Source: Arcticibacter svalbardensis MN12-7 (lineage in GTDB: Bacteria; Bacteroidota; Bacteroidia; Sphingobacteriales; Sphingobacteriaceae). From it: a stretch of DNA of 46,057 nt. The stretch's first letter is position 1. Each line of letters begins with the position of its first letter. This document shows positions 20,228-44,471 of the stretch, piece after piece. The translations under genes were made by a program, and so were the position numbers. Location: the NCBI RefSeq assembly GCF_000403135.1, contig NZ_AQPN01000070.1, positions 1 to 46,057 on the forward strand, written 5' to 3'. The notes beneath the pieces were generated by a model. That model was given only the letters and a program-made list of their open reading frames with translations, did no database searches and had not been told where the DNA came from.

Positions 20228-22605
20228 ACCATTTCCAGGAAGCATCGGACGGATAGTCAAAATGATGGAGAACACATTCATATTGTTTTCAGGGACATCC
20301 AGGATTAAAGACCCTTGCAGTAATTCAGCGAGTGACCGCGAAAGGCCTAATCAAAGGCCTGTTCCCAGTTTTGATCGTGTCTCTTTGATACGGAAAAATG
20401 TATCAAAAATCCGCTCTTTCAATTCCACTGGAATAAGGTTGCCATTACTTTTAACTTCTATGGAAAATTTATTGGCTTCCATATTGATGTCAGACAATGA
20501 AATGATGACATGAGATTCGCAGTATTTTATGGCATTTGATATCACATTACTGATGATCTTATTTAAGGCTTCGGTATCTGTACTGGCCTTAAATGTAGAG
20601 AGTGAAAAATCGGTCTGCAGCATAATATCCTTCTGATCAGCGGCAGGTTGAAACCGTTGTACGATATCTTTTAGTAGGGCAACAATATCAGTATCCACAA
20701 AATTGAGACTACAACTATTGGTTTCGAACTTCTAAAGTCAAGTAATTGCTCTGTAAGTTTCAGCAATCGTCTGGTTTTTCTTTCCATGACAAGGATATTT
20801 TTTTTGATCGCAGGAACTTCATCCACCTTACTGATGATCCTTTCAAGAGGTGCCTGAATTAAGTTAAGAGGTGTGCGGATTTTATGCGCTACATTAGTAA
20901 AGAAATCAATTTTTGCCGGATAAACTTCTTTTTCTTTTTTATAGGAAAGCTACTCCAATTTTCGATAGTTCTTTTCTTTAATTTTATCATCAAAGTAGGT
21001 GATAAGAAAAAATAGTGAGGACACACTAATAATATTATAGAAGAAATAGGCAAATGGGCTTTTCCAAAAAGGAAGACGAATAAATACGGTCAACTTAGTA
21101 GGTATTTTCTTCCAAAGGCCACTACTGTTCGCTGCTTTTACATAAAAAATATCCTGTGGCGAGATCTGTAAAATAGGCTCTTCGGTTTGATTTCAAATAG
21201 GTCCATCCATGATCCAATCCCTCTGATTTAAAGGGATATTCCGTCATCTCCGGAGAGGTATAACTCAAAGCGGCAAATTCAATATTAAAGGAGGATTGGT
21301 CATAGGAAAGGGTAATGCTATTGGTTAATAGCATAGACTTTTTTAGGGGGGAGTAGTGTTTGTTTATAACCAGTTCCTTATTAGAGACCTCAAAACTAGT
21401 GATATAAACAGGAGGAAGGTATAAGGGATGAACTTATCCAAATTAAAACGGATCATTCCCTTGACACTTCCAAAATACATATCTCCGTTCAGGGTATCTT
21501 TATAGGCAGAATTATAATTAAACTGATCATTCAGCAGTCCGTTAGACCTGGTAAAGACTTGCAACTTTTCAGTAGGTCACTGGACTCAAAAACCCCATTT
21601 ACACGGTTACTATTCAGACTGTGGATATCTTTGGGGTCATACACAAACTGCTTGATCTTTCCACTTTCCGGATTAAGGAGGTAAGTCCCGTCTTTGATTG
21701 TACCCACCCAGATATTTCCCTTATAATCTTCCAGAGTGGAATAAATAAATGGACGGTAGTTATCAGGAAAATAGATTTTTCTAAACTCTAGTTTAAAGGA
21801 TTATAAGCATACATTCCGTTTGTAATCCCCTCGTAGAGTTTGCCCGATCTTGGTTTAATGGAATTAACAATGAAATTACTTTTCAAAGAACCAGAGTCTG
21901 TCCCGTAGTCAAAATGGCGATATCCATAATATCCAGACCATGCTGGAAAGTTCCAATCCATAACTGGATGCCGAATGCTAGCAGTCCATGAATATTGGTA
22001 TAGGCGATATCCGTTTTAGCTCCTGTGGATTTTAAAGAAATTGAAATACCTGTTTTAGGGTTAAATTTATTTAGTCCGGCATCTTCTGTACCAACCCAGA
22101 TATAACCATATTGATCTTTGCAGATCTCCCGAATAGCATGACCACTATGAGATCCTCCACCATTTGCAGGAAAGAACTTTTCGAACAAATTATAGTGCTT
22201 AGGATAATAATTAAGTCCTCCGAAAAAACTACCAACCCAGATACCACCTTCTTTATCCCTGCTAAGTGTATTTACGGCATTATCAAAGATTGAATAGGGA
22301 TTATTGTTGTTTTTGACCAGGTTAACATCGCGATTCGGTCGGAACAGTTTAAACGTAAATCCATCAAACCTGTTCAAACCATCTACCGTACCAAACCACA
22401 TGAAACCCTTATGATCCTGAAGAAAACAGAACACGGTATTGCTGGATAGCCCATTTTCTACTTCATATCGTTTGAAATAATAGGGTTGCGCAACAACAGA
22501 ACTGATACAGATAGAAAGTAGCAAAAAAAAGAGTAAAGATGAACATATCAATATGTTTATAGGTTTGGTTAAAGATACAAAAGGATAAGAATTGACACAA
22601 ATCAA
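20216..22605 (-). pseudogene. Broken propeller-type sensor histidine kinase (HTCS-like)
   Basis: Read on the minus strand, the parts of one sensor protein follow in order across several frames. A signal peptide and beta-propeller (Reg_prop) repeats come first (KRYEVENGLSSNTVFCFLQD, HKGFMWFGTVDGLNRFDG, 22605-21883), then FGSVKGMIRFN (about 21450), a Y_Y_Y domain (21334-21122), a membrane helix (about 21060), the H-box FFTNVAHKIRTPLN (about 20890, with Lys where Glu is usual), and the ATPase domain (20698-20351, N-box NKIISNVISNAIKYC). A stop interrupts LGTGL*LGLSRSLAELLQG, after which the frame runs on to 20216. Total length is about 800 codons, shorter than usual, so propeller blades are missing. 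No receiver or AraC output domain follows. It would have sensed a glycan fragment. Confidence 0.88.
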
Positions 22606-28466: not shown

Positions 28467-29669
28467 ATGAATTTTGTCTTCGTTAGTCTTCAGCGTATCA
28501 ATACAGATCGGGAATCGACATCAACCAGTCTTGCAAAGGAACTCTCTAAAAAGCATCGTGTTTTATATGTTAACCCGCCAATTGACCGCCGTACATGGTA
28601 TTCAAAAACTAACGACATCTATACTCAAGCCCATATTCAAAATATAAAGAATAAAAAAGCGGGTTTAGTTCAAGTATCTGAACAGCTTTCAGTATTAAGT
28701 CCCCAAAAAGTAATTGAATCTATTAACTGGATTCCTTTTACCGCTGTGTTTTCTTTATTTAACCGGATAAATAATAAAAGATTTTCTTCCTGTATAAAAG
28801 AAGCCATACAAGAATTAGGTTTCGATACCTTTATTCTTGTAAACGATAAGGATATGTTTCGAAGCTTTTATTTGAAAGAGTTTTTAAAACCTGCTCTTTA
28901 TGTATACCTCGACAGAGATTATACCATTGGTTTTGGTTATTGGAAAAGACATGGTCCTACACTGGAGCCTTTACTTATGAAAAAAAGTGATGCAGTGGTA
29001 TGCAACTCATTGGACTTCACCAAGAGGGCTTTGACTTATAATAAAAATAGTTTTTATATTGGAAACGGTGCCGATCTGGAGGTCTTTGATCATACCAAGT
29101 CATGGGAAAAGCCAGAGGAACTTAAAACATTCAAAAGGCCAATAGTAGGGTATGTGGGTGCACTGAATTCAATGCGTATTAATATCAATTTAATTGCAAG
29201 CATTGCGAGAAAACGCGCTGATTGGGATTTTGTATTTATAGGGGAGGAGGACGAAAATTTTATAAAAAGCGATTTACATACTATAAGTAACATCACATTT
29301 TACAAAAAAAAGCATACCAATTTAATTCCCGCTTATGTTAAATATTTTGATGTATGCATCAATCCTCAATTAGTTAATGAAATTACTATCGGAAATTTCC
29401 CATTAAAAATAATTGAATATTTAGCAATGGGTAGACCTGTTGTGGCTACAGCAACAAATACCATGAAAGAGGTTTTCAGCGAATACACCTATCTGGCTAT
29501 TACAACTGATGAATACATTGAAGCTATTGAAAAGGCAATGAAACTTGATACTTTAAATTTACAACAGGAAAGAATTCAGTTTGCACATACTTATAGCTGG
29601 CCTTCAGTAGCAAAGATCTTTCTTAAATATATTAATGAAGTGGCTAAAGACAAAAACATACCAGTTTAA
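28467..29669 (+). CDS. GT4-like glycosyltransferase (GT-B fold)
   Basis: A 400-residue retaining GT-B glycosyltransferase. The N-terminal half has the acceptor-side start FVFVSLQRINTDRESTSTSLAKELSKKHRVLYVNPP and LYVYLDRDYTIGFGYW; the middle AVVCNSLDFTKRA and FYIGNGADLEVFD, with the conserved NG(A/V)D, begins the donor domain. The C-terminal domain has VGYVGALNSMRI, FVFIGEEDENF and the motif CINPQLVNEITIGNFPLKIIEYLAMGRPVVAT, in place of the EX7E element. It resembles TuaH-like proteins. The gene is second in the pair with the GT2 gene and overlaps a convergent GT2 gene by 4 bases. Confidence 0.87.
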   Translation: MNFVFVSLQRINTDRESTSTSLAKELSKKHRVLYVNPPIDRRTWYSKTNDIYTQAHIQNIKNKKAGLVQVSEQLSVLSPQKVIESINWIPFTAVFSLFNRINNKRFSSCIKEAIQELGFDTFILVNDKDMFRSFYLKEFLKPALYVYLDRDYTIGFGYWKRHGPTLEPLLMKKSDAVVCNSLDFTKRALTYNKNSFYIGNGADLEVFDHTKSWEKPEELKTFKRPIVGYVGALNSMRININLIASIARKRADWDFVFIGEEDENFIKSDLHTISNITFYKKKHTNLIPAYVKYFDVCINPQLVNEITIGNFPLKIIEYLAMGRPVVATATNTMKEVFSEYTYLAITTDEYIEAIEKAMKLDTLNLQQERIQFAHTYSWPSVAKIFLKYINEVAKDKNIPV

Positions 29670-30520
29670 TCCTCGTTAGAGGATGTTTTAGTATCATGAG
29701 CCTTTTCTCCTTTGAGCATACTGAAGGATCTTTTAATTTCACGGAGCACTCTATTTTTTAATGCGTTAGTAAAACTACCGTCTCTTTCTAGTGTGCGTGG
29801 ACCTGTCCATGGTCTGGCTTTAGCTGATTTTACTTGTTCAATTTTACCATACTGCATCATATCAAATGCTAAACGGCCATCATCGCCTCTAACATTAACC
29901 ATGATAAATCCTGCTTTTAAACCAAACTCTTTTACATATCCCATACTTATTCCATAAGCATTCAAGTAGGGGCGTTTAATATGACGATATCCGGCTATCA
30001 CGTCTTTCATTTTCTCTAATAAAAAGAGTTTCCACCTTGGATACCCGGGTTCAGGAATAAAGGAATATCGGCCATAAACACATGCAGTACCTGGTTTTTG
30101 CAATACCTTCATCATTTCATTTACCCAGGTATCTGGATATAGACAATCTGCATCTGCAAGAAGAATATACTTTCCTTTTGCTTGCTCCTGTCCCAATTGA
30201 CGTGATGGCCCACAGCCCTGTATTTCCTGAAATAACTTCTTAACATGTAACTTGTCTAGCGTTATCTGAGTATGGTCCGATGAATTATTATTAATCACAA
30301 TTATTTCTAAAGGAATGTTGGTTTGCATCCGCGAAAGCGAGTACAAACAACGCAAAATATTAACCTCTTCATTATAGGCAGCAATAAGAATGGTAATGAG
30401 AGGATCAGCTCCCTGAATATGATCCAATTTTTGATTTACCTGATCAAATATATCCTGAGGAATCTGCGCATAATCAGTATAGGGTAAATTAACTTTTTCT
30501 ATCCAGTGGGGTATATTCAT
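29666..30520 (-). CDS. GT2-family glycosyltransferase
   Basis: A 284-residue soluble GT-A enzyme, last gene of the minus-strand polysaccharide operon (12 bases after the polymerase gene). Motifs: ITILIAAYNEEVNILRCLYSL, IIVINNNSSDHT, the metal-binding LLADADCLYPDTWVNEM (DAD) and VNVRGDDGRLAFDMMQYG, which is the ED-type acceptor motif. The residue patch GCGPSRQLGQEQAKGKY is typical of GT2 donor sites. A highly charged tail (KGEKAHDTKTSSNED) ends the protein. The sugar transferred is unknown. Confidence 0.87.
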   Translation of the reverse strand: MNIPHWIEKVNLPYTDYAQIPQDIFDQVNQKLDHIQGADPLITILIAAYNEEVNILRCLYSLSRMQTNIPLEIIVINNNSSDHTQITLDKLHVKKLFQEIQGCGPSRQLGQEQAKGKYILLADADCLYPDTWVNEMMKVLQKPGTACVYGRYSFIPEPGYPRWKLFLLEKMKDVIAGYRHIKRPYLNAYGISMGYVKEFGLKAGFIMVNVRGDDGRLAFDMMQYGKIEQVKSAKARPWTGPRTLERDGSFTNALKNRVLREIKRSFSMLKGEKAHDTKTSSNED

Positions 30521-30532
30521 AATTGTAATTTT

Positions 30533-32047
30533 TTACGAAAAATTTGAGGAAAGGTTCTTTTTTTGTTTTTCTATATCCAACCGTTTAGTTACCGTAATGA
30601 TCGCTGTAAATAAGTAGAAATAGATATTGGAAGGAAACTGTACAATAGCCTCCTGTGGGTAATTCCCAACAGCAAATGCGAAAATAATAATGGTCATGGC
30701 CAGGCAGTAAGACCTGAGCTCCGGATCTTTGATAGAAAAAAAATTATTTATACCCGTTTTAATAATAATTACCATCAGTGTACATATCAGGAGTAATCCT
30801 ATTGAACCTGTTTCTACTGCTACTCGAACATATCCACTATCGGGAGGAAATTTAGCTAGTAAAGAATGCGGCGAAAATCGTGTACCCCATACACCCGTTG
30901 CCCCCAATCCTCCACCCAAGGGATGCGTTTGTATAAATGGTTGAATTCTTTTTTGATTCTCCTTTCGTACATTAAAGGATGCATCTTCCGATGGTTGGAA
31001 AGCAGATTGAAACCGTCTTATACTCGGGCTTGAGCTTGGAGTAAATATCAGTAAAGCAAAAAGTACCCCTGCGATAATACTGGCTATGATTACATTTCTA
31101 TTCAAATTAACAATCATTAAAAGAACAAGTGCAACCGGGACTAAAACATAAGCACCACGAGTTCCTGAAAATAACATCGCTTGAAGAAATATTCCAGCCA
31201 TTATTCCTAGTACCACCTTTTTCCAGGATTTAAGGGGACTGAAAAGCATACTAATACAAAACAGTGCAGGCGCAACCATATTGTAGGCAAATGCCACCGG
31301 ATCAGAGAAAATGGAGAACTTCCTCCAATGTCCATTTATAAAGTATAATGCTTTTACACGAGGGTCAGATAAGGATCTCATCTCTGATTCTGAGAATCCT
31401 ATAAACTCTTGTTTAAAGGCATAAAAAGCGCCAAAGAGTGCAAGCAATAACCATAATTTTAATATCAGTTTCAAAAAAGGGAGAGTTTTTATATTATAAC
31501 TAAATATAAAATACATGAGCATGACAGCTGCAACTGCACGGATGGTATATAACCAAGCCATTCGCGATTCCGCAGTTGGATTGCCAATTTGCATTATATT
31601 ATAACCTACCCAAATTAAAACGATAACACCAATAGGTTCTTTAAATAAACCCCAATCCGCTTTCTTTTTTTGAATAATAAAGAACCCCAGGATAAGAAGG
31701 ACCTCAATACCATCCATTAAAGTTCCCAGAGGAAAGCTTGATATGAAACCATAGATCCACATGAGAAAATAAGCGCCTATAAGAATGATAATGATACCAA
31801 TTTGAGGAAACCTGACGATACAGAAAACAGCAGGCAGCCCAATTACAACAACTAATATCATGGAAACTCCAGATATTCCGGATTTATCTATTACAAAGGA
31901 AAAAGCGATAGCAAATAAAGACAGCAAAATAAGTCCTGGAATATTAGTTAGCTTCTCAATTATAAAAATCCTCTTGAGATGAACACTAAGTTTTTCATTT
32001 CTCCAACTTTCCCTTGTTTTCTTTAAGTTCAGCTTGATGTCTCCCAT
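30533..32047 (-). CDS. Wzy/O-antigen-ligase family polymerase
   Basis: A 504-residue integral membrane protein with about eleven to twelve helices. The Wzy_C domain lies in the centre-to-C-terminal half, where a long periplasmic loop contains the family pattern PLGGGLGATGVWGTRFSP...FPPDSGYVRVAVETG; the Arg and His-type residues in this loop bind the lipid-linked glycan in characterised members. It would polymerise repeat units flipped by the Wzx protein, under length control of the Wzz-like protein of the same operon; ligase activity cannot be excluded. Its ATG overlaps the stop of a 46-residue membrane protein gene (TAATG), and the gene 12 bases downstream is a GT2. Confidence 0.88.
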   Translation of the reverse strand: MGDIKLNLKKTRESWRNEKLSVHLKRIFIIEKLTNIPGLILLSLFAIAFSFVIDKSGISGVSMILVVVIGLPAVFCIVRFPQIGIIIILIGAYFLMWIYGFISSFPLGTLMDGIEVLLILGFFIIQKKKADWGLFKEPIGVIVLIWVGYNIMQIGNPTAESRMAWLYTIRAVAAVMLMYFIFSYNIKTLPFLKLILKLWLLLALFGAFYAFKQEFIGFSESEMRSLSDPRVKALYFINGHWRKFSIFSDPVAFAYNMVAPALFCISMLFSPLKSWKKVVLGIMAGIFLQAMLFSGTRGAYVLVPVALVLLMIVNLNRNVIIASIIAGVLFALLIFTPSSSPSIRRFQSAFQPSEDASFNVRKENQKRIQPFIQTHPLGGGLGATGVWGTRFSPHSLLAKFPPDSGYVRVAVETGSIGLLLICTLMVIIIKTGINNFFSIKDPELRSYCLAMTIIIFAFAVGNYPQEAIVQFPSNIYFYLFTAIITVTKRLDIEKQKKNLSSNFS

Positions 32048-32187
32048 TATAATATCATGATCTTGACAAATATGAAATAAATGATTGCACAGACAAAAAT
32101 AATGGCTACTATCCTCAGGATATCCTGCCGTTTTAACTTGCTTTCTCTAACTTTACTTTGATCTGTAATTTTTGGGTCAACTCTCAT
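32047..32187 (-). CDS. 46-residue single-helix membrane protein between GT2 and Wzy genes
   Basis: A short gene below usual length cut-offs. The product starts MRVDPKITDQSKVRESKLKR, a basic cytosolic segment, then has one strongly hydrophobic helix (LRIVAIIFVCAIIYFIFVKIMIL) that reaches the C-terminus, so an N-in topology is expected. Its ATG overlaps the stop of the upstream membrane GT2 gene as ATGA (32184-32187), and its stop overlaps the ATG of the polymerase gene as TAATG (32045-32049). This double coupling and the coherent membrane-protein composition argue strongly for a translated gene. Role unknown; a small subunit or assembly helper for the membrane GT2 or the polymerase is the natural guess. 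Confidence 0.75.
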   Translation of the reverse strand: MRVDPKITDQSKVRESKLKRQDILRIVAIIFVCAIIYFIFVKIMIL

Positions 32188-33380
32188 TTTATGTCATTTA
32201 TATCGTCAATAGAATGAGTATGATAGTGTTTTGTTGCTACAGAGGTCTTGTTTGCTTTCCGGCTTTTCAGCAAAGACACAATCTGGTAGAACATAAAATT
32301 GGGTATATTCACAAGTGAATTGTAGATCCGCTTATCAGTTGATGACTTTTGCAATGCAATATAAAAACCTAAGACAAAAAGGATAAAAGCTACCAGCCAT
32401 ATAAAGGATGAAACCGGACTGAACCATAAGTCACAGAAAAAGCAAATTCCCGACCCTAAAATAAACAAAAACAAAGGTGGCCGGAGTAGTATCAAACCGA
32501 AAGTAAACTGATTGAAACTGAAATTCCGAATACCCTTTCCCATTATGGTAAAACCTAAGTTGAAATACTTGAACCAAGTATTAATCCATCTTGAACGTTG
32601 CTGAACGAGCTGATCTGAACGGGATGTTTTTTCATCATATACAATAGCCTTTTCAGTAAAAGCAATTCGAATATCTTTCAATACAATTATAGATTGCAAT
32701 ACTTTATCAAAGCCTGCTCCACTTACCTCTTTATTCTCCAGACAGTCACAGTATAGATCAGTGGTAAAAGCCATCCCTGATCCTGATAATGTAGCAGAAG
32801 ATCCTAAACCGAATAAGACCTTTCCATCATAAAAGTGATAGTAGATGTCACGGGCAGCATCCAGACATGAATAGGTGGTATCCAAATTTTTAGCTTCCCT
32901 AACACCTTGTACAGCTTGAAAGCCCTGATCAAAACAGGTGTTTAGTTGATTTAAATATTCAGGATGAACAAGGTTGTCGCTGTCGATTATAGTTAGGCGG
33001 TCGTGTTTACGAACAAAACGATCAATAGCATAAAAATGCGATTTCACATTACTAGCAAGCGTATCAACCGGTCTCAATAAGATAACTTTAGGATCATCAA
33101 ACTGTAAATTGGAAATATCGCATTTATCAGCTACTATGTAAATGATATAACTTGAATAATTTAGCTTATGAATAGAGGATACAACAGCAGCAAGCGTTTG
33201 AGTTTGTTCATATGCCGTGATGATAATGGCGTAATCAGCTTCTGATAGTTTTGGCAATTGTCTACCAATATAAGATGATGGCTGGCGTGCCGTCCATATA
33301 ATATACAACACAAGCGGCAAGACCAGGTTATACCCAACTAATACTTGAAAAAAGATCCACAATATACTTATCATACTCAT
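32184..33380 (-). CDS. Membrane-bound processive-type GT2 glycosyltransferase
   Basis: A 398-residue inner-membrane GT-A enzyme. One N-terminal helix (ISILWIFFQVLVGYNLVLPLVLYIIW) is followed by a cytosolic catalytic domain with YAIIITAYEQTQTLAAVVSSI, LTIIDSDNLVHPEYL (DSD metal site), GSGMAFTTDLY and the acceptor-channel motif QQRSRWINTWF (QxxRW), and then three helices at the C-terminus. The QxxRW motif and helix layout are those of cellulose/hyaluronan-synthase-like or dolichyl-type transferases. Its start overlaps the stop of the Wzz-like gene as ATGA, and its stop overlaps a 46-residue membrane protein gene. Sugar unknown. Confidence 0.88.
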   Translation of the reverse strand: MSMISILWIFFQVLVGYNLVLPLVLYIIWTARQPSSYIGRQLPKLSEADYAIIITAYEQTQTLAAVVSSIHKLNYSSYIIYIVADKCDISNLQFDDPKVILLRPVDTLASNVKSHFYAIDRFVRKHDRLTIIDSDNLVHPEYLNQLNTCFDQGFQAVQGVREAKNLDTTYSCLDAARDIYYHFYDGKVLFGLGSSATLSGSGMAFTTDLYCDCLENKEVSGAGFDKVLQSIIVLKDIRIAFTEKAIVYDEKTSRSDQLVQQRSRWINTWFKYFNLGFTIMGKGIRNFSFNQFTFGLILLRPPLFLFILGSGICFFCDLWFSPVSSFIWLVAFILFVLGFYIALQKSSTDKRIYNSLVNIPNFMFYQIVSLLKSRKANKTSVATKHYHTHSIDDINDIK

Positions 33381-35557: not shown

Positions 35558-36241
35558 TTATTTTATTTCTTCCAGCTTCTTTGCCAGTAATGCTTCCAAT
35601 GAGACTTTTGCTGCTATTAAACTTGTTTCTGCTTGTATACGGGTAAGATATGCAGTCGATAGTGACATAGATGCATTATTATAATCTAAAAAGGTTATTT
35701 CACTTCGCTCATATTTGATCTTCATATCCTTGAAAATGCTTTCAGCGTCCAATACAATTTTGTTTTGTAAACGGAGAGCCGAAAGACTTTGTAAATAAAG
35801 GAGATACCGGCTTTTCACATCACTCTCTAACTGAAGATCATAAGCCTCTTTGGCTAAATAAGATATTTTTACTTGCTCTTTCGCCGTCTTAATATTAAAC
35901 GGTATTTTAAACAGGGTACCTGGATTGAGGGATACTCCAAACTGATATCCTGTCAATAATTGCGGATTTACAATATCTACTGAACTACTATTAGAACGTG
36001 CTAAATAGGAGAAAGAGAATGAACTTACCCAAGATGTTCTTTCTCCGTTCAGCATATTTTTAGCGATGTTAACCTGGTGTTCATACACTTTTCCATTTGG
36101 GTTATTCTCCTTGGCTATAGCCACCAGTTTCTCCACATAAACAGCGGAATAATCTGTCATAATGGTTTCCTGTCCCTTCAAAAGGTTACAGATTAGAAGC
36201 ATTTGTAATAATATGATGATCGATGACTTTTTTATAATCAT
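35558..36241 (-). CDS. Half-length TolC-family outer-membrane protein
   Basis: A 227-residue exported protein with signal peptide (IIILLQMLLICNLLKG) and one OEP (outer membrane efflux protein) repeat: VEKLVAIAKENNPNGKVYEHQVNIAKN, a beta-strand part (FSFSYLARSNSS; GYQFGVSLNPGTLFKIPF) and a long helical hairpin to the end. Classical TolC proteins have two such repeats in about 430-480 residues, so this is a single-repeat form. It stops exactly before the Wzz-like gene and is first in the operon, so it is likely the outer-membrane exit of the exopolysaccharide. There is no sign of frameshift or of a lost second half between it and the next gene. Confidence 0.82.
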   Translation of the reverse strand: MIIKKSSIIILLQMLLICNLLKGQETIMTDYSAVYVEKLVAIAKENNPNGKVYEHQVNIAKNMLNGERTSWVSSFSFSYLARSNSSSVDIVNPQLLTGYQFGVSLNPGTLFKIPFNIKTAKEQVKISYLAKEAYDLQLESDVKSRYLLYLQSLSALRLQNKIVLDAESIFKDMKIKYERSEITFLDYNNASMSLSTAYLTRIQAETSLIAAKVSLEALLAKKLEEIK

Positions 36242-36593: not shown

Positions 36594-39500
36594 GTGAAAA
36601 AAAATTACCTGTTATTTATGGCAGTTATTGCACTTGTGGTCCTGTTAACACGACCCGCAAAAGCACAATTTCCATATGTTGAAAGCTTCAGAAATAGCAC
36701 AGCTTCTGGTATTGTTTTTGGTGGAACTCCAGAAGCAATTCTAACAGCAGCTCCAGGAACCGGAACCGGAGGGGCCAGTATTGACCCTGCAGGGAGTGGT
36801 TATCTGCGTTTAACCAATAATACTAAAAATCAGAAAGGATTTATTTATAGTACTGCGAGCTTCCCTTCTTCTAAGGGTCTTTCGGTCGAATTTGAATATT
36901 ATATATATGGTGGAACAGGTGCTGATGGTATCTGCTTATTTCTATATGATGCCAGCGCCAGCCCTTTTGTAATTGGTGGCTTTGGTGGATCCTTAGGATA
37001 TGCTCAGATTACTACAACCACTCCTGTGTCCCCGGGTGTATCTAAAGGATACCTTGGAATTGGATTAGATGAATTTGGTAATTTCTCCAATCCGACAGAA
37101 GGAAGGCAGGGTGGATCAGGAATGCAACCGGGGTCAGTTACTTTACGTGGGAAAGGGGATGGGGCTGCACTTACAACTGGTAATTATCAATTCCTGACAA
37201 GTAAAAAACCGACCGATTTAACCTTTGCTTTAACAGAGGGAGGTACCACACGAAAACCCGACGTAAGTTCTACCGGTTACCGGAAAGTTTTTATCGATCT
37301 GGTTCCGAATGTCAATGGAGGATTTAACATCTCAGTAAGCATTACAAAAGGAGGTTCCACTCTGCAAACCACAACCGTAATTGACAACTATTACTATCCT
37401 GATCTGGCTCCACAAAATTTAAGTTATGGATTGTCCTCCTCAACTGGCGCAAACACCAATTTCCATGAAATAAGGAATGTATTTATTGATGTAACCAGTA
37501 AGAGTGTATTGGTAGAGCCTTTAGCTAATCCTGATAACTTAACTTTGTGTTCCGGCAAAGTGGCAATAGTAGATGTCACCGCTAATGACACGACTACAAA
37601 CAAAGGGGGTAGTATCAATAAGGTTTCCATTGATCTTGATCCTTCAACTGTTGGAATCCAGACCACCAATACTATAGCTAACCAGGGTACTTTTTCTCTC
37701 AATAGCAATGGAACAGTATCTTTTACGCCTATATCTTCATTCATTGGTACAGTAACTGGTTACTATACAGTTAAAGACAATTTTGGAATGAGTTCCAATC
37801 CCGGAATAATTACATTGACTTACGTGGCTACACCTGTGCAGCCTGATGCAGGAAAAGATTCATTGATCAATATTATTACAGGTGCAGGAAATTATATCCT
37901 ACAGGGAAGTGCTCCGGGCACAAATACGGGAACCTGGACCCAGATCTCTGGTCCTGAAGGAGCTATCATACTAAGCCCTAAGGTTTATAATTCTTTGGTT
38001 AATAAATTGACTGGTGGCATTTATGTATTTCGTTGGACCATTCTATCGCCTGGAGGATGTCAACTCTCAGATGATATGACATTAACAGTAAACAGAAGAC
38101 CTGTGGCTGTTGATGATACAACTACTATTGCACTGAATACAGCTATCCGTATCCCTGTATTGGCCAACGATACAGATGAAGACGGTAATAATACGCTTAA
38201 TAAAAGCAGTATCAGCATTAAGACTAATCCTTCACATGGCGCACTTATCGTTGATCCGGTTACAGGATTGGTATTTTATACTCCTAATAATGCATACAGC
38301 GGATATGATATATTTTTTTATACAGTTAAAGATAATTACGGCCTGGAATCAAACATTGCTACCGTAACCATCGCAGTGAACATTAAACCGGAGGGCTCAA
38401 ATGATAATGCATTTACATATTCGAACATTCCTGTCTTAATACGGGTGCTTGATAATGATAGAGGACGTACAGGAGCAACTGTTTTTAAACTATCAAATCC
38501 ACTCCACGGTACTGTTGCACTGGAAACGGATGGAACATTCACCTATACTCCGGTATCTGGCTTTAGTGGAAAAGATTCGTTTACCTATATGATTCGAAAT
38601 CTTCAAAATCTGGAATCTGACCCCATTACCGTGTTCATCAATGTAAATCCATTAGGCAGTGCTGATGCGGTTACTACAGCTAGTGATACTCCAGTAACTA
38701 TTAGGGTTAAAGATAATGATCTGAGTCAAACAGGAACTACTGTACAGCAGGAAACGAATCCCTTGCATGGAAGCATTGCGGTAGGTGAAACAGGAATCAT
38801 TACGTACACCCCTGTTGCAGGATATACAGGAACTGATGTATTTACCTATACGCTGGTTACTTCCGATGGACTGCAATCTTTACCTATTAACGTTACGGTT
38901 TCTATTACAGGCTTGCCGCCGATTGCTCCGGCTATAAATGTGAACGTCCCCTTAAATGGGAGTACTACTATCAATATCCCTTTACCAGCAGGTAGTTTTA
39001 TCAAAATCACTACTCCACCAACTCATGGTACTTATACCATTAATCCCGTTACAGGTGAAATAATTTATACTCCCAACCCTGGTTATAGCGGTCCGGATGA
39101 ATTTGAATATACGGTTACAGATGGTGCAGGTAATGAGTCGACACCTGGAAAAGTGACCATAGCGGTTAATGTCCCTGCCAAAATAGGCTTAGCTAAAGCG
39201 CTGACATCAATTTCTAAAAACACAGATGGAAGCTATAATATCAAGTTTACTTTTACAATTGTCAACTATGGTGATTATCGTATTGAACGTTTAAGTCTGA
39301 CAGATAATTTGCTGACTGCTCTTGCGGGAAATCAGTTTAATGTATCCGGCATAGCTGCTTCAGGAAGTTTACTCATCAATAGTAGTTTTAATGGTAATAC
39401 TGATCAGGAACTGCTTTTAAATACCAGCTCCATTCAACCTCTATACAAAGAAACCGTAGTGGTTGATCTGGTTGTTTTGGTAACAACAGATGAGACGACT

Positions 39501-39920
39501 TTTTTAAACAGGGCATTAGTAAAAGGGCTTTCCGTACTTGATGGTGCAGCAACTACAGATGAGTCAACTAACGGATTGTCTCCTGATTCTCAAATCTCAG
39601 GTGATCCGACTCCTTCAGATCCCACTCCCTTTACGCTTGAAAAAGAAACCGTGTTTATTCCCGGTGGTTTTTCTCCCAATAATGATGGGATCAATGACAA
39701 TTTAATTATTCAGAACGCACTTGGGAAAAAGGTAGATATAGAAATCTTTAACCGCTGGGGAAACAGGGTTTTCAGGTCGAAAGAATATCAGAACACATGG
39801 AATGGAAAGTGTACCGAAGGAATTCATATGGGTGAGGATGTTCCTGTGGGCACTTACTATTACATCGTGGTATTGGATAACAAGGAAAAGAAAGCGGGAT
39901 ATCTCACAATTAACAGATAA
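36594..39920 (+). CDS. Secreted multidomain adhesin-like protein with T9SS type B sorting domain
   Basis: A 1,108-residue cell-surface protein. The GTG start opens a signal peptide (KKNYLLFMAVIALVVLLTRPAKA). Residues about 25-300 form an L-type (legume) lectin-like domain (KGLSVEFEYYIYGGTGADGI; YLGIGLDEFGNFSN). Residues about 310-870 contain repeated Ig/cadherin-like modules of the PVLANDTDEDG / GYDIFFYTVKDNYGLES type, at least four in tandem. A DUF11-like domain follows (870-1000), then the C-terminal gliding-motility-associated (type B) sorting domain FIPGGFSPNNDGINDNLIIQN...NRWGNRVFRS, which directs export by the type IX system and surface retention. The PorP/SprF gene begins immediately downstream, a usual pairing for such substrates. 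Confidence 0.92.
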   Translation: MKKNYLLFMAVIALVVLLTRPAKAQFPYVESFRNSTASGIVFGGTPEAILTAAPGTGTGGASIDPAGSGYLRLTNNTKNQKGFIYSTASFPSSKGLSVEFEYYIYGGTGADGICLFLYDASASPFVIGGFGGSLGYAQITTTTPVSPGVSKGYLGIGLDEFGNFSNPTEGRQGGSGMQPGSVTLRGKGDGAALTTGNYQFLTSKKPTDLTFALTEGGTTRKPDVSSTGYRKVFIDLVPNVNGGFNISVSITKGGSTLQTTTVIDNYYYPDLAPQNLSYGLSSSTGANTNFHEIRNVFIDVTSKSVLVEPLANPDNLTLCSGKVAIVDVTANDTTTNKGGSINKVSIDLDPSTVGIQTTNTIANQGTFSLNSNGTVSFTPISSFIGTVTGYYTVKDNFGMSSNPGIITLTYVATPVQPDAGKDSLINIITGAGNYILQGSAPGTNTGTWTQISGPEGAIILSPKVYNSLVNKLTGGIYVFRWTILSPGGCQLSDDMTLTVNRRPVAVDDTTTIALNTAIRIPVLANDTDEDGNNTLNKSSISIKTNPSHGALIVDPVTGLVFYTPNNAYSGYDIFFYTVKDNYGLESNIATVTIAVNIKPEGSNDNAFTYSNIPVLIRVLDNDRGRTGATVFKLSNPLHGTVALETDGTFTYTPVSGFSGKDSFTYMIRNLQNLESDPITVFINVNPLGSADAVTTASDTPVTIRVKDNDLSQTGTTVQQETNPLHGSIAVGETGIITYTPVAGYTGTDVFTYTLVTSDGLQSLPINVTVSITGLPPIAPAINVNVPLNGSTTINIPLPAGSFIKITTPPTHGTYTINPVTGEIIYTPNPGYSGPDEFEYTVTDGAGNESTPGKVTIAVNVPAKIGLAKALTSISKNTDGSYNIKFTFTIVNYGDYRIERLSLTDNLLTALAGNQFNVSGIAASGSLLINSSFNGNTDQELLLNTSSIQPLYKETVVVDLVVLVTTDETTFLNRALVKGLSVLDGAATTDESTNGLSPDSQISGDPTPSDPTPFTLEKETVFIPGGFSPNNDGINDNLIIQNALGKKVDIEIFNRWGNRVFRSKEYQNTWNGKCTEGIHMGEDVPVGTYYYIVVLDNKEKKAGYLTINR

Positions 39921-40856
39921 ATGAAGAGGTTTAAAAAAATAGTAGGGGCGTTATGCTTGCTTGGATGTGCGATCTCAGTAGATGCGCAGCAAAACGCCAT
40001 GTATACGCAATATATGTTTAATACACTAGCTATAAATCCTGCCTATGCAGGAAGTAGAAATGTAGTTTCGGCTACTGCATTACACCGTAGTCAATGGTCT
40101 GGCTTAGATGGTGCTCCCCAAACGACATCTTTCACTATTGACGCTCCGTTTAATGGTAAAAAGGTGGGTCTGGGTTTGCAGATCTTAAGTGATAAACTGG
40201 GCATTACCTCCACAACGGGTGCTGCACTGAGTTATGCTTACCGGATCAGAATGGCTCAAGGCTCTTTGGCTTTTGGAATTCAGGGAAGCGCGGTTCAATA
40301 CCGGGCTGATTATACAGGTGTCGACCTGGGAAACGCCGGTACGTATGATCCTGCATTTTCAGAGAACATCAATAAATTTCTATTCAATTTCGGAACAGGT
40401 GTATATTATAATTCCGATCGCTTTTATATAGGCTTGTCCGCTCAGGACTTATTGAACTCACGAATTACAGCATATGAGGCAGCGGATGATACTACCGGTG
40501 GGAGTTTAAAAAACATGCATCTTTTCTTCGCTACAGGTTATGTATTTAAAGTGGATGATAATTTAAAGCTGAAGCCTTCAATACTCATCAAGGGTGTTAA
40601 AGGAGCTCCTTTGGAAGCGGACCTGAATGCCATGCTCTGGATAAAAGATGTTGTTGCTGTTGGAGCACAATACCGTACCAGTGCCGATGTGGCAGGTATT
40701 CTCGAGATTCAGGCTAGTCCCCAAATCCGAATAGGCTACAGTTACGATCATAGTGTAACCCGTTTAAGAAGTTTCAATACGGGGAGCCATGAAATTATGA
40801 TCAGGTATGAGTTTGGCTTTGAACGTGGTAAAATTTTATCTCCAAGATATTTTTAA
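39921..40856 (+). CDS. PorP/SprF-family T9SS outer-membrane protein
   Basis: A 311-residue outer-membrane barrel. After the signal peptide (KRFKKIVGALCLLGCAISVDAQ) comes the family hallmark YTQYMFNTLAINPAYAGSR, then repeated barrel strands and the C-terminal HEIMIRYEFGFERGKILSPRYF. Members of this family (SprF, PorP) are needed for secretion or surface attachment of the specific type B substrate encoded next to them, and bind PorK/PorN-type or PorE partners. Here the upstream adhesin is the likely client. The gene starts directly after the adhesin stop and its own stop overlaps the ATG of the OmpA-like gene (TAATG). Confidence 0.93.
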   Translation: MKRFKKIVGALCLLGCAISVDAQQNAMYTQYMFNTLAINPAYAGSRNVVSATALHRSQWSGLDGAPQTTSFTIDAPFNGKKVGLGLQILSDKLGITSTTGAALSYAYRIRMAQGSLAFGIQGSAVQYRADYTGVDLGNAGTYDPAFSENINKFLFNFGTGVYYNSDRFYIGLSAQDLLNSRITAYEAADDTTGGSLKNMHLFFATGYVFKVDDNLKLKPSILIKGVKGAPLEADLNAMLWIKDVVAVGAQYRTSADVAGILEIQASPQIRIGYSYDHSVTRLRSFNTGSHEIMIRYEFGFERGKILSPRYF

Positions 40857-42985
40857 TGATTATGAAGCTATCCATGCGTTATCTGATTTGTTTTTGTATC
40901 CTCACAACTTTCGTGATCAATACTGCTTTTGCTCAATCTTCTCCGGATAAATTGATGCTGAAGGCAACGACTGATTTTCAATCTTTAAAATATCTGAACG
41001 CCATTGCCACTTTAAATAAGGTACTGGCAGTTGATTCAGGCAATGTTCAAGCACTGGAAATGATCGCATTTAGTTACCGGCAAACGAAAAAATACCCCGA
41101 AGCTTTATCCTCGTATGAGAAACTGAGTAAACAAAAACCATTGAAACAGGACTGGGTATTGTACTATGCAGAGGCGCTCGCTAATGCACAGCAATATGAA
41201 AGGTCGGAAAATTGGTATCGGACATACCTGAGTATGGTTCCATCTGATAAAAGAGCTTCTGCTTTTGCACGCTCAAACCCCAGTTCCTTATCGCCAAACA
41301 GTGAGTTTTGGAAAGTAGCACTAACAAACTTAAACACTTCTGCCTCAGAGTATTCGCCTGTATACTACAAACAGGGTCTTCTCTTTAATAGCAACAGAAC
41401 AATGGGGGCAACCATTAAAAGGGTTTTCCCCTGGGATAATACGCCTTACACGAACTTGTTTTATATTGCGAAACTATCCGACATTAAGGATGTAAATTCT
41501 ATTGCAATAGGCAACGCAGGGGGCGATTCTAAGGAATCTATGGTATACAATGATGATGATACCCCAGCTACCAGTAATGACAGCAGGACGCTAGGCCAAT
41601 ACAGTCCTTCCTATTATCTGGATTCTTCAGGAACGATGATGAGTCCAAATCGGAATATCCACCTCTTGAAAGGAAATGTAAATACCCGATTTCATGAGGG
41701 CCCTGCTGCTGTGTTCCCTGATGGATCACTCATTTTTACCCGAAACAATTATTTTAAAGGATCAGCCAAAAAGAGCACGACCGGCATTAATAAGTTGAAA
41801 TTGTATCTGGCCACAGGAAAGAACCTGGACAAGATCACTGAGTTCCCATATAACAGCAATGAATATTCAACCGGACACCCTGCATTAACTGCGGATGGTA
41901 ATATCCTTATTTTTTCATCAGATATGCCCGGAGGCCTTGGTGGAACAGATCTATATTATTCTGTTCGCTCAGGTACACAATGGACAAGACCTGTAAACCT
42001 GGGAAAACAGATAAATACAGAGGGTAATGAACAATTTTCTTCTCTTTCTAAAGATGGCACCTTATTCTTCTCGTCAACCGGACATGCTGGTTTAGGAGGT
42101 TTGGATGTTTTTGAAGTGATGTTGAAGGATATGAAACCTCAGTATAACCCAAGAAATCTGGGTATGCCTATAAACTCCTCTAAAGATGATTTCGGCCTGA
42201 TCAGGTCCGATGATGGCAAAAGTGGTTATTTTAGTTCCAACAGAACTGGTAATGACAACATCTATAATTTCAGTCAGGCTACCTATAGAATTTCCCTTGA
42301 AGGAATAGTTACTGATGCTAGGACACATATTGCACTCGCAGGAAGCCGGTTACTATTGAAAACCCTGGATAGAATTGATACTATTGCGGCCAATTCAAGA
42401 GGGGAATTCAAGTATAACCTGAAGAAAGAAACTGATTATGAGGTTACTGCGCAAAAACTAGGGTACATCAGTCAAATGGTGTTCACAACTTCAGTGGGCA
42501 TTACTACAGATTCTGTGATCCATTTAGATATGAAGTTGAATAAAATGGAAAGCCTTCAACAATATGTAATTAATAACTGTGACTCGCTGAAACGTGTTTT
42601 CGCTGTGGATAACATCTACTATGACCTTGACAGGGATGAAATACGTGCTGATGCGAGACCTCCACTGGATGCTTTAGTGGCCCTGATGAAAAGACATCCT
42701 GAAATGACTGTGATTACTTCAAGCCATTGCGACAGTCGTGCTTCCGAAGGATATAACCGTAATCTATCGCTTAGAAGGGGTGGTTCTGCAAAGAATTACC
42801 TGGTATCAAAAGGGATAAACGGGAGCAGGGTAAAAATAGAATATTATGGCAAAACTCGCCTGGTAAACCGTTGTTACGATGGCGTAGTGTGTTCGGAAGC
42901 TAATCAGCAATTGAACCGTCGTACAGAGTTTGACGTTATTGTAAATGGGGTGAACCTCACTCAACAGAATTGTAATGATAGATAA
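40856..42985 (+). CDS. TPR-PD40-OmpA outer-membrane lipoprotein-like protein (PorE-type)
   Basis: A 709-residue periplasmic, outer-membrane-linked protein. Signal peptide (MRYLICFCILTTFVINTAFAQ), two or three TPR units (about 30-125), a beta-propeller of PD40/WD40-like repeats (about 160-470; ILIFSSDMPGGLGGTDLYYS and GTLFFSSTGHAGLGGLDVFE), a carboxypeptidase-regulatory-like beta domain (475-560) and an OmpA peptidoglycan-binding domain (580-709; IYYDLDRDEIRADARP, GYNRNLSLRRGGSAKNYL, NRRTEFDVI). This order matches PorE of the type IX system. It probably anchors the adjacent SprF protein to the cell wall. Initiation at 40856 or at the ATG at 40862 is possible. A shared bidirectional terminator follows. 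Confidence 0.92.
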   Translation: MIMKLSMRYLICFCILTTFVINTAFAQSSPDKLMLKATTDFQSLKYLNAIATLNKVLAVDSGNVQALEMIAFSYRQTKKYPEALSSYEKLSKQKPLKQDWVLYYAEALANAQQYERSENWYRTYLSMVPSDKRASAFARSNPSSLSPNSEFWKVALTNLNTSASEYSPVYYKQGLLFNSNRTMGATIKRVFPWDNTPYTNLFYIAKLSDIKDVNSIAIGNAGGDSKESMVYNDDDTPATSNDSRTLGQYSPSYYLDSSGTMMSPNRNIHLLKGNVNTRFHEGPAAVFPDGSLIFTRNNYFKGSAKKSTTGINKLKLYLATGKNLDKITEFPYNSNEYSTGHPALTADGNILIFSSDMPGGLGGTDLYYSVRSGTQWTRPVNLGKQINTEGNEQFSSLSKDGTLFFSSTGHAGLGGLDVFEVMLKDMKPQYNPRNLGMPINSSKDDFGLIRSDDGKSGYFSSNRTGNDNIYNFSQATYRISLEGIVTDARTHIALAGSRLLLKTLDRIDTIAANSRGEFKYNLKKETDYEVTAQKLGYISQMVFTTSVGITTDSVIHLDMKLNKMESLQQYVINNCDSLKRVFAVDNIYYDLDRDEIRADARPPLDALVALMKRHPEMTVITSSHCDSRASEGYNRNLSLRRGGSAKNYLVSKGINGSRVKIEYYGKTRLVNRCYDGVVCSEANQQLNRRTEFDVIVNGVNLTQQNCNDR

Positions 42986-43014
42986 AAAGAAAGGGTATTA
43001 AACCTTTTCTTTTT
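42984..43014. terminator. Bidirectional terminator between convergent operons
   Basis: A 12-pair stem (AAAAAGAAAGGG with CCTTTTCTTTTT, one G-U pair, loop TATTAAA) overlaps both stop codons. A-rich and T-rich flanks make it work in either direction. Confidence 0.8.
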
Positions 43015-44083
43015 GTAACAATGCTGGAAATGTTTTTAACAGAATTTTTAGATCTAACCAGAAGGAATAATTAGATGCGTAAAAGTTATCTAATTTCTTT
43101 CTTTCACGTTCGGACATGTCGGCTTTCCCCCGTTTGCTAATTTGCCATAAACCAGTTAATCCAGCAGGACCAAGGAAACGTGTTGTCCATTCATTGGAAG
43201 TAAGCATCTCTGCCTCATATAATGGCAATGGACGATTGCCAACCATTGACATGTCGCCAATCAATACATTAAAAAGTTGAGGAAGCTCATCTATACTAGT
43301 CATCCGGATAAACTTGCCCAATTTGGTAATTCTAGGGTCGTCTTTAAGCTTGATAAAAGCAGATTTGCCTTTTTCTATATCTGTATATTGATTTAAAGCA
43401 GATAGCATAGCAATTTCTTTATCAGCACCGGTACGCATCGATCGGAACTTATAAAAATCAAAAATCTTATACCCTGTACCTACCCGTTTACTTTTATAAA
43501 TGGCAGGCCCCTTTGATTCTAATAGAACACATGCTGCTACAACAGCAAATAAGGGCGATAGTATCAATAATGCAGATCCGGAAGTAATAATGTCAAACGT
43601 TCTTTTATAAGCCGGAAGCGTATACCGAACATCCACCTTACCAGACAACTCGGTTAGTTTTGGTTTAATCAGTCTGAACTTGACCAGAAATTGCAAGCGC
43701 TCGCAAAGATCTTCAACAGGGAAGGGGTAACTGTAAAAATCATGAACCTTCAATGCCATGGCCTTTGCCCTCCAATCCTTGTTTACAAAGGCAGATAATA
43801 GAACGATAATCATACCGCCCAAAAGAGGATTCTTCTTAATGTTCGAAATAACATTAATCCATTCGCCCTTAAAATCTGCTTCAATCAACAGAATATCAGG
43901 TAAGGTGAGTAAGGACTGATCATTTAGGAACTTTTCAAGAGTTTTAATAGTCAAATCATTTGAATCGAGCGCAAACTGATTAGACAACTCTCCTGATAAA
44001 TAATCTCTCAGTTCTGAACCCGCATACACTACTCGTGCATGGATGCCTGATTGTGATAAGTTTAATGTGGATAAAGATACCAT
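42998..44083 (-). CDS. Phosphoglycosyl (sugar) transferase fused to a degenerate receiver domain
   Basis: A 361-residue protein with two parts. Residues about 15-137 follow the beta-alpha pattern of a response-regulator receiver, but the acidic pair is missing (VVYAGSEL), the phospho-acceptor Asp is Glu68 (PDILLIEAD), and the conserved Lys is Tyr119 (DFYSYPF). Residues about 155-361 are a bacterial sugar transferase (PglC/WbaP catalytic domain): KRTFDIITSGSALLILSPLFA is the single re-entrant membrane helix, then KSKRVGTGYKIFDFYKFRSM and TSIDELPQLFNVLIGDMSMVG. It would transfer a sugar-1-phosphate to undecaprenyl phosphate, the first step of repeat-unit synthesis. The four N-terminal helices of WbaP-type enzymes are absent. 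It begins 4 bases after a response-regulator gene. Confidence 0.9.
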   Translation of the reverse strand: MVSLSTLNLSQSGIHARVVYAGSELRDYLSGELSNQFALDSNDLTIKTLEKFLNDQSLLTLPDILLIEADFKGEWINVISNIKKNPLLGGMIIVLLSAFVNKDWRAKAMALKVHDFYSYPFPVEDLCERLQFLVKFRLIKPKLTELSGKVDVRYTLPAYKRTFDIITSGSALLILSPLFAVVAACVLLESKGPAIYKSKRVGTGYKIFDFYKFRSMRTGADKEIAMLSALNQYTDIEKGKSAFIKLKDDPRITKLGKFIRMTSIDELPQLFNVLIGDMSMVGNRPLPLYEAEMLTSNEWTTRFLGPAGLTGLWQISKRGKADMSERERKKLDNFYASNYSFWLDLKILLKTFPALLQKEKV

Positions 44084-44087
44084 CGTG

Positions 44088-44471
44088 CTAATTTATTGAG
44101 GTGGGAATTGAAAGTAGTTTAATGATTTCTGTTTTTAGTGCAGTTGGATTGAATGGTTTCTGAATGTATGATTCTGCCTTATGAGACATCCCTTCTGCTA
44201 CACTGTCCAGGTCTTCGGCACCCGAAAGAAGAATTACAGGAATGTCACGGTAATAACCACTGACTTTAAGATTACGAACGAATGAACTGCCATCAAAATA
44301 GGGCATATGCAAATCCGATATAATTAATGCAGGTGTATTTCCTTCTTCAAGCCAACTAATCGCTTCAATACCACTATTCTTAATGATCAGGTTATAGTCT
44401 TTAGCTAATACAAAATTTAATAGCTTCAAGATACTTATCTCATCATCAACTATAAGTATTTCTTTCTTCAT
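44088..44471 (-). CDS. Single-domain response regulator (CheY/Spo0F-like)
   Basis: A 127-residue receiver domain with no output domain. All functional residues are present: Asp9-Asp10 (ILIVDDE), phospho-acceptor Asp53 (ISDLHMP), Ser in ILLSG and Lys in YIQKPF. The start at 44471 gives MKKEILIVDD; the longer frame to 44564 would add an unlikely basic leader. It is first in a two-gene operon with the receiver-fused sugar transferase, 4 bases apart, so it probably acts by contact with that enzyme or another partner. No cognate kinase is nearby. Confidence 0.93.
   Translation of the reverse strand: MKKEILIVDDEISILKLLNFVLAKDYNLIIKNSGIEAISWLEEGNTPALIISDLHMPYFDGSSFVRNLKVSGYYRDIPVILLSGAEDLDSVAEGMSHKAESYIQKPFNPTALKTEIIKLLSIPTSIN

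Follow-up and report, generated by a model that had tools for sequence, protein, structure and literature searches.

In Myxococcus xanthus, the response regulator (RR) EpsW stimulates the phosphoglycosyl transferase (PGT) EpsZ without a transcriptional step, and the phosphorylated RR has been proposed to promote dimerization of the transferase (mBio, 2025; PMC12802240). Small PGTs carrying receiver domains have also been noted (O'Toole et al., 2021, PNAS, as cited in PMC12802240), and WbaP, a large PGT, is a homodimer (PMC10942596). In PleD of Caulobacter, phosphorylation of a receiver alters its contact with a pseudo-receiver, leading to dimerization and enzyme activity, and in Streptomyces two receiver proteins, BldM and WhiI, at least one of them atypical, partner as a heterodimer (PMC12632262).

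The gene pair studied here lies in a window of 46,057 nucleotides (the whole stretch of DNA that was analyzed, i.e., positions 1 to 46,057 of contig NZ_AQPN01000070.1 from Arcticibacter svalbardensis MN12-7; Table 1) and consists of a single-domain RR and a PGT whose N-terminus is a pseudo-receiver (PsR). As in EpsW/EpsZ, a single-domain RR is proposed to control, post-translationally, the PGT that starts a Wzx/Wzy polysaccharide; unlike EpsZ—a large PGT with a transmembrane bundle and a DUF, and with no receiver domain—this transferase carries a fused PsR, and RR and PGT form a two-gene unit in Bacteroidota. The order of parts (receiver, pseudo-receiver, enzyme) is that of PleD, though PleD is one protein and a diguanylate cyclase, whereas here a separate gene encodes the receiver and the enzymatic part is a membrane-associated PGT. 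With the proteins noted by O'Toole et al. (2021) the PGT of the window shares the fusion of a receiver to a small-type PGT, and with BldM/WhiI the pair shares the partnering of two receiver proteins; BldM/WhiI, however, control gene expression, do not require BldM phosphorylation and involve no enzyme (PMC12632262). The statement in the first-pass annotation that no characterized example exists has thus been overtaken by EpsW/EpsZ, an RR that activates a PGT, though one without a receiver domain (PMC12802240). Among the matches listed from the open-licence literature, no title describes an RR plus PsR–PGT pair in Bacteroidota. Within the class of RR-controlled PGTs, the pair is real and widespread as a variant, and as far as the literature searched goes it is uncharacterized.

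Table 1. Features of the window that bear on the RR–PGT pair and on the polysaccharide genes near it.
Feature	Position	Strand	Basis
Single-domain RR, 127 aa	44088..44471	-	Pfam Response_reg 8.8e-19; alignment
RR Asp53 codon, expected phosphorylation site	44313..44315	-	Read from sequence, aligned
PsR/PGT fusion, 361 aa	42998..44083	-	Pfam, NCBIfam, AlphaFold2, Foldseek
PsR domain with extended last helix, residues 15-149	43637..44041	-	AlphaFold2 model; Foldseek receiver matches; helix end from about 141 of low confidence
Glu68 codon, at phospho-Asp site	43880..43882	-	Glu in 126/185 relatives
Asp115 codon, most conserved PsR position among those tabulated	43739..43741	-	Asp 181/185
Tyr119 codon, at conserved Lys site	43727..43729	-	Tyr 69/185, Lys 3/185
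Arg129 codon, PsR helix 5	43697..43699	-	Arg 176/185
Monotopic PGT catalytic domain, residues 158-361, long first helix, Asp265-Glu266 dyad	43001..43612	-	Pfam Bac_transf; PglC 8e37 (Foldseek); dyad 185/185
Three genes: T9SS type B-sorted tandem-repeat protein, PorP/SprF family, OmpA-like	36594..42985	+	
Half-length outer-membrane efflux (OEP/TolC-like) protein	35558..36241	-	Pfam OEP 9.7e-23; such a gene follows the PGT in relatives
Wzc-like protein, 726 aa	33377..35557	-	Pfam Wzz 9.3e-5 and CbiA 7.9e-4, both under cut-offs; like-sized family at 12/20 loci
Glycosyltransferase family 2	32184..33380	-	
Wzy-type polymerase (Pfam Wzy_C)	30533..32047	-	
Glycosyltransferase family 2	29666..30520	-	

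The RR of the window is a canonical single-domain RR with a complete catalytic set (D9, D10, D53, S83, and K105 in the alignment), and four bases (44084–44087) separate it from the PGT start. The first-pass annotation had described exactly this arrangement, a complete lone RR with Asp53 and the Lys followed after 4 bases by the transferase, without giving the strand, which is minus for both genes. The PGT matches Bac_transf over residues 160–356 (Pfam; 2.2e-58), the best structural match of its catalytic domain is PglC (8e37; Foldseek E 8e-12, 32% identity), and Asp265 and Glu266 are invariant in the alignment of 185 relatives. With a PglC-like domain, the Asp-Glu dyad and a predicted N-terminal membrane helix (158–190), it classes as a monotopic PGT. 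Features of the large, WbaP/EpsZ type were absent: no PF13727 match appeared in the PGT up to E 1, and the model places only a receiver-like domain before the catalytic domain. A PF13727 DUF in place of a receiver was accordingly rejected as the identity of the N-terminal domain, which matched receivers structurally.

The receiver nature of this N-terminus is nearly invisible to single-sequence HMMs, the match to Pfam Response_reg (E 0.15) lying under the cut-off and that to NCBIfam LvrA (1.4e-5 over residues 16–135) far under it. In the AlphaFold2 model (built with 19 sequences; mean pLDDT 76.7, pTM 0.52), however, the N-terminus has the five-strand/five-helix order of a receiver, with block means of pLDDT between 80 and 92 over residues 21–140, and Foldseek matched this region to many receivers, among them the RR468 variant 4ja2 (TM 0.84 normalized to the target, rmsd 2.2). 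Helix 5 is drawn to residue 149, just ahead of the long helix 158–190, with a pLDDT of 54 for the block 141–150; the placing of PsR and catalytic domain relative to each other is unsure because of the pTM of 0.52. Glu68 sits near the end of beta-3 (64–69) in the model, and in the alignment Tyr-Ala-Gly (20–22) occupies the expected place of the acidic pair and Tyr119 that of the Lys. The reading of this region as a receiver fold with Glu68 for the phospho-Asp, no acidic pair and Tyr for Lys was therefore borne out by both model and alignment: as modeled, the PsR has the receiver fold, and it is without residues that are key to phosphotransfer.

The pair recurs well beyond this genome. A first search with the window PGT alone as query found 23 among 60 relatives, and a scan of contigs gave at least 80 loci, of which 20 (L030–L049) were analyzed, the others mostly matching the catalytic part alone. 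At 18 of these 20 an RR gene stands upstream of a receiver-fused PGT, the two remaining loci (L045, L048) being bare PGTs, and represented among the 18 named fused loci are Sphingobacteriaceae, Chitinophagaceae, Flavobacteriaceae, Prevotellaceae, Spirosomataceae, Hymenobacteraceae, and Saprospiraceae. In genome surveys whose E-value limits vary, the PGT subfamily, fused or bare, was present in 33/296 genomes sampled from the phylum, in 180/301 from the family of the window (E up to 1e-75), in 13/249 and 68/147 from two further families, and in 95/242 and 3/77 from two orders.

Adjacency was scored in a set of 360 loci (L001–L006 and L050–L109 left out; the window is L112), which represent 343 distinct PGTs. 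Of these, 313 are fused and 28 are bare, and two were set aside (L028, 475 aa; L408, 480 aa). A same-strand RR precedes 302/313 distinct fused PGTs at a distance of −120 to +260 nt, and two more have one outside this range or overlapping (L385 at 637 nt; L407), for 304/313 in all. Two fused PGTs with a dead fused receiver (L015, L383) had no RR upstream within the sequence examined, one (L347) has no upstream sequence, and the remaining six without an RR are fusions to an intact receiver. Gaps at 196 loci comprise 112 negative ones, 67 of 0–20 nt and 17 longer, the lengths being rough because starts were chosen mechanically, and at five loci RR and PGT genes share one reading frame. In a small sample of bare PGTs, partly hand-chosen from the order with 95/242, an RR adjoins 17/28 and is intact beside 16 of those 17, whereas 11/28 have none in range. 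Judged by these comparisons, RR plus PsR–PGT is a conserved Bacteroidota module, beyond chance, and the conservation outside this genome on which the first-pass annotation had staked its proposal was found. A reading in which the two genes are merely co-transcribed, the RR serving another pathway and adjacency reflecting operon inheritance, draws on the exceptions (L015, L383, and the 11 bare PGTs); adjacency of the pair throughout the phylum argues against it, as do the fusions discussed below, and we regard it as distinctly unlikely.

In relatives the receiver character is plainer: an RR HMM recognizes 118/196 fused N-domains at E < 1e-3, the best at 1.2e-24 (L119). Among 185 distinct pairs the phospho-Asp site is occupied by Glu (126 pairs), Gln (19), Asp (13), or other residues (27), and the Lys site has Tyr in 69 and Lys in 3. 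A separate alignment of the larger set gave Glu in 161/302, Asp in 43/302, and Gln in 33/302, with Lys in 11/302; Asp and Lys are never found together in any of the 302. The individual routes differ: L119 and L120 keep the Lys but have Glu at the Asp site, L042, L044, and L116 keep the Asp and have lost the Lys, and L124 has both in one alignment, yet neither acidic pair nor Ser/Thr. As families lose the phosphorylation site by different routes, selection appears to be for an inactive site and not for Glu; the conserved feature of the PsR, on this alignment evidence, is its inactivity and not the Glu/Tyr residues themselves. Conserved instead are Asp115 (181/185), Arg129 (176/185), and Phe132 (172/185). 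Apart from this, PGTs of about 400 aa at seven loci (L033, L036, L037, L040, L041, L042, L049) have a Cys-rich, possibly metal-binding insert (CxxC...C...C) in the catalytic domain that is absent from the PGT of the window.

These counts also bear on the suggestion that Glu68 mimics a permanently phosphorylated state, such that the PsR would be constitutively "on" and would not be acted on directly by the RR. No other residue is as common as Glu at the site, and in many response regulators a Glu in this place goes some way toward mimicking phosphorylation (PMC12632262). Against this, 59/185 PsRs have another residue there, the acidic pair is gone, the Lys required for reading out a state of this kind survives in only 3/185, and a constitutive PsR leaves unexplained why the RR gene stays beside the PGT. 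We rejected phospho-mimicry as a family-wide explanation and consider the constitutive reading very improbable.

Receiver intactness was scored at five aligned positions. The genes occur in three forms: RR plus bare PGT (form A), an intact receiver fused to a PGT (form B), and RR plus PsR–PGT (form C). Intact fused receivers occur in 0/302 PGTs with an adjacent RR and in 6/11 without one (L335, L370, L388, L394, L404, L406; Fisher 3.7e-10, ignoring kinship), or in 6/9 after L385 and L407 are reassigned, one of the nine having no upstream sequence. In this set, intactness of the fused receiver and presence of an RR next to it are thus mutually exclusive, and forms A and B show that an RR can pair with a PGT in the absence of a PsR. 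In the catalytic-domain tree, which has 182 rows, the intact fusions are scattered, requiring 6 changes, at least 2 of them forced by supported branches; counted on supported branches, the association of intactness with RR adjacency comprises only 2 independent comparisons, each in the direction expected. A tree of receivers, with 98 rows, 119 columns, and many unresolved forks, included the 22 most receiver-like PsRs and that of the window; these 23 PsRs form one side of a 100% branch and all six intact fused receivers fall outside it. One of the six, L335, nests within 11 RRs with 95% support, so this protein seems to have arisen by direct fusion of the RR itself to the PGT, which we read as a Rosetta-stone sign that RR and PGT work together; the nearest rows of L370, L388, and L394 are RRs or each other, without support, and the other intact fusions are probably alike in origin. 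Under mere co-transcription neither the six intact receiver–PGT proteins, one apparently made from the neighboring kind of RR, nor the lack of any intact fused receiver beside an RR would be expected.

The partner RRs themselves are mostly live: 259/302 are strictly intact, 281/302 have the phospho-Asp, and 298/302 have the Lys. In 21/302 the phospho-Asp is gone and the pair is nonetheless kept; having lost the Asp on the RR as well, a switch in these pairs must be constitutive or otherwise driven. Ten of the 21, from one genus of the family of the window, share DGSSK (L192, L210, L215, L217, L218, L220, L223, L224, L226, L231), which leaves these pairs with two dead receivers.

We think it probable, if well short of certain, that the RR, once phosphorylated, acts on the PGT and does so via the PsR wherever one is present—in effect PleD split over two genes, and a functional cousin of EpsW/EpsZ. 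In such a scheme a kinase or phosphorelay would phosphorylate the single-domain RR, and the phosphorylated RR would bind the PsR on the PGT, both the binding and its dependence on phosphorylation being steps that we infer. The contact would then alter PGT activity through the long last helix that joins the PsR to the membrane-associated catalytic domain, the PsR serving as a docking and relay module not itself open to phosphorylation. By analogy with EpsW, activation seems the likelier direction of control. Sequence comparison motivates the proposed mechanism well, and the two-component switch through the PsR first proposed from the window alone fits the comparative pattern. Counting against it are the 21/302 partner RRs without the phospho-Asp, the PGTs for which no RR was found in range (L015, L383, and 11/28 bare PGTs), the pairing of RRs with PGTs that have no PsR, and the lack of any kinase gene seen beside the pair of the window. 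A more specific version, which we advance tentatively and would not expect to survive in full, is a rule with exceptions by which, across forms A, B, and C, each polysaccharide-initiating enzyme has no more than one live receiver; in form C the RR would have gained a hydrophobic patch after helix 3 (about Ser71-Gly-[Leu/Phe/Tyr]-[Tyr/Phe]) and would use it to dock on the strand 5–helix 5 face of the dead receiver near Asp115 and Arg129, giving a PleD-like switch in trans on a membrane enzyme.

The surface of the RR is consistent with such docking. In the tree-reduced set, position 73 is hydrophobic in 140/143 RRs with a PsR partner versus 4/23 receivers of forms A and B, Ser71 is present in 125/143 versus 3/23 without a PsR partner, and Asp101 is lost in 76/143 versus 1/23; L335, which the tree places inside the form C RRs, is without the 71–74 motif. 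Because only 3 independent comparisons lie on supported branches, the contrast at position 73 cannot reach 0.05, and none of these pairs is opposed on average. Mean-field DCA of the 302 pairs (effective number 188 at 80%) ranked D10–D53, two active-site residues, first within the RR. Between RR and PsR, the means of the top 10, 25, and 50 couplings were matched by 0/47 within-clade shuffles and the top pair by 4/47. A block chosen post hoc, RR 58–76 with PsR 112–136, holds 6 of the top 25 couplings (shuffles: mean 1.9, sd 1.2, maximum 5); in each half of the data it holds 4 of the top 50 versus 1.55 expected, and in the top 25 it holds 1 and 3 versus 0.78 expected. Couplings of the RR with the catalytic domain, however, also beat shuffles, with z 7.4 over the top 50 against 28 shuffles, as did those of PsR with catalytic domain. 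Since this control exceeded shuffles too, we dropped global coevolution as proof of contact, and shared history accounts for part of the signal, a point in favor of the co-transcription reading. Surface signature and coevolution together are only suggestive of RR:PsR contact.

A different role for the PsR would be that of a module mainly for PGT homodimerization, with the RR acting elsewhere, e.g., on the catalytic domain, or only modulating the dimer. Asp115 and Arg129, both on the PsR and both nearly invariant, are spaced as in a dimer salt bridge of the PhoB type, which we take to be Asp101–Arg115 in that numbering. A basic residue at 105 and an acidic one at 125, presumably the place of another PhoB-type bridge, are kept in 61/185 PsRs, whereas at position 132, presumably the place of a third, the bridge is lost (Phe in 172/185). 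Forms A and B, which pair receivers with PGTs that have no PsR, would also suit a dimer module, as would precedent: WbaP, whose DUF would have the corresponding role, is a homodimer (PMC10942596), and for EpsZ it has been proposed that EpsW favors the dimer (PMC12802240). A homodimer module alone, on the other hand, would not predict that the RR surface differs with and without a PsR partner, nor the cluster, weak as it is, of RR couplings on PsR 112–136. We judge this reading rather unlikely and retain direct action of the RR on the PGT, through the PsR where present, as the working model.

If the proposal is true, the module extends the EpsW/EpsZ mechanism of 2025 to another phylum and a different architecture, and the pair would suggest a fast, protein-level switch for surface polysaccharide in many Bacteroidota. 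It bears on two questions, namely, the timing of the use of the shared lipid carrier for surface polysaccharide and how pseudo-receivers work; as the module is common and compact and has natural variants with and without a PsR, both are directly testable.

The gene neighborhood is that of a polysaccharide locus. By Pfam, size, and order, the window genes from 36241 to 29666 are of the same kinds, order, and strand as in relatives. The plus-strand block at 36594–42985 separates the PGT of the window from these other polysaccharide genes; no such block stands between the PGT and the OEP/Wzc genes in relatives such as L031, where they are contiguous. A family of Wzc size occurs at 12 of the 20 loci L030–L049, mostly after an OEP-like gene that adjoins the PGT (family assignments by Pfam cover two OEP-like representatives and one that is Wzc-like), and at L030, the nearest named relative, the OEP/Wzc genes are absent from beside the pair.

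Candidate inputs are encoded beside some pairs. Among loci with at least 600 nt upstream of the RR, the frame immediately preceding it is that of a hybrid kinase or Hpt protein at 10/131 form C and 5/14 form A loci, counts in which five of the 15 positives supplied the queries; Pfam domains of these frames were checked at L049, L033, L041, L118, L136, and L137. Beside the RR–PGT pair of the window no kinase or Hpt gene was seen, and the genome has three Hpt domains over cut-off, one of them in a 134-aa open frame. At L136, L137, and L138, a hybrid kinase frame (REC + Hpt), an intact RR, and a bare PGT follow one another, which is the module at its simplest. Farther along the minus strand of the window, two short frames resemble, by eye and from their translations, a piece of a histidine kinase ATPase domain (20351–20698) and a propeller-type sensor piece (21883–22605), and may possibly be the remains of a decayed hybrid two-component gene.
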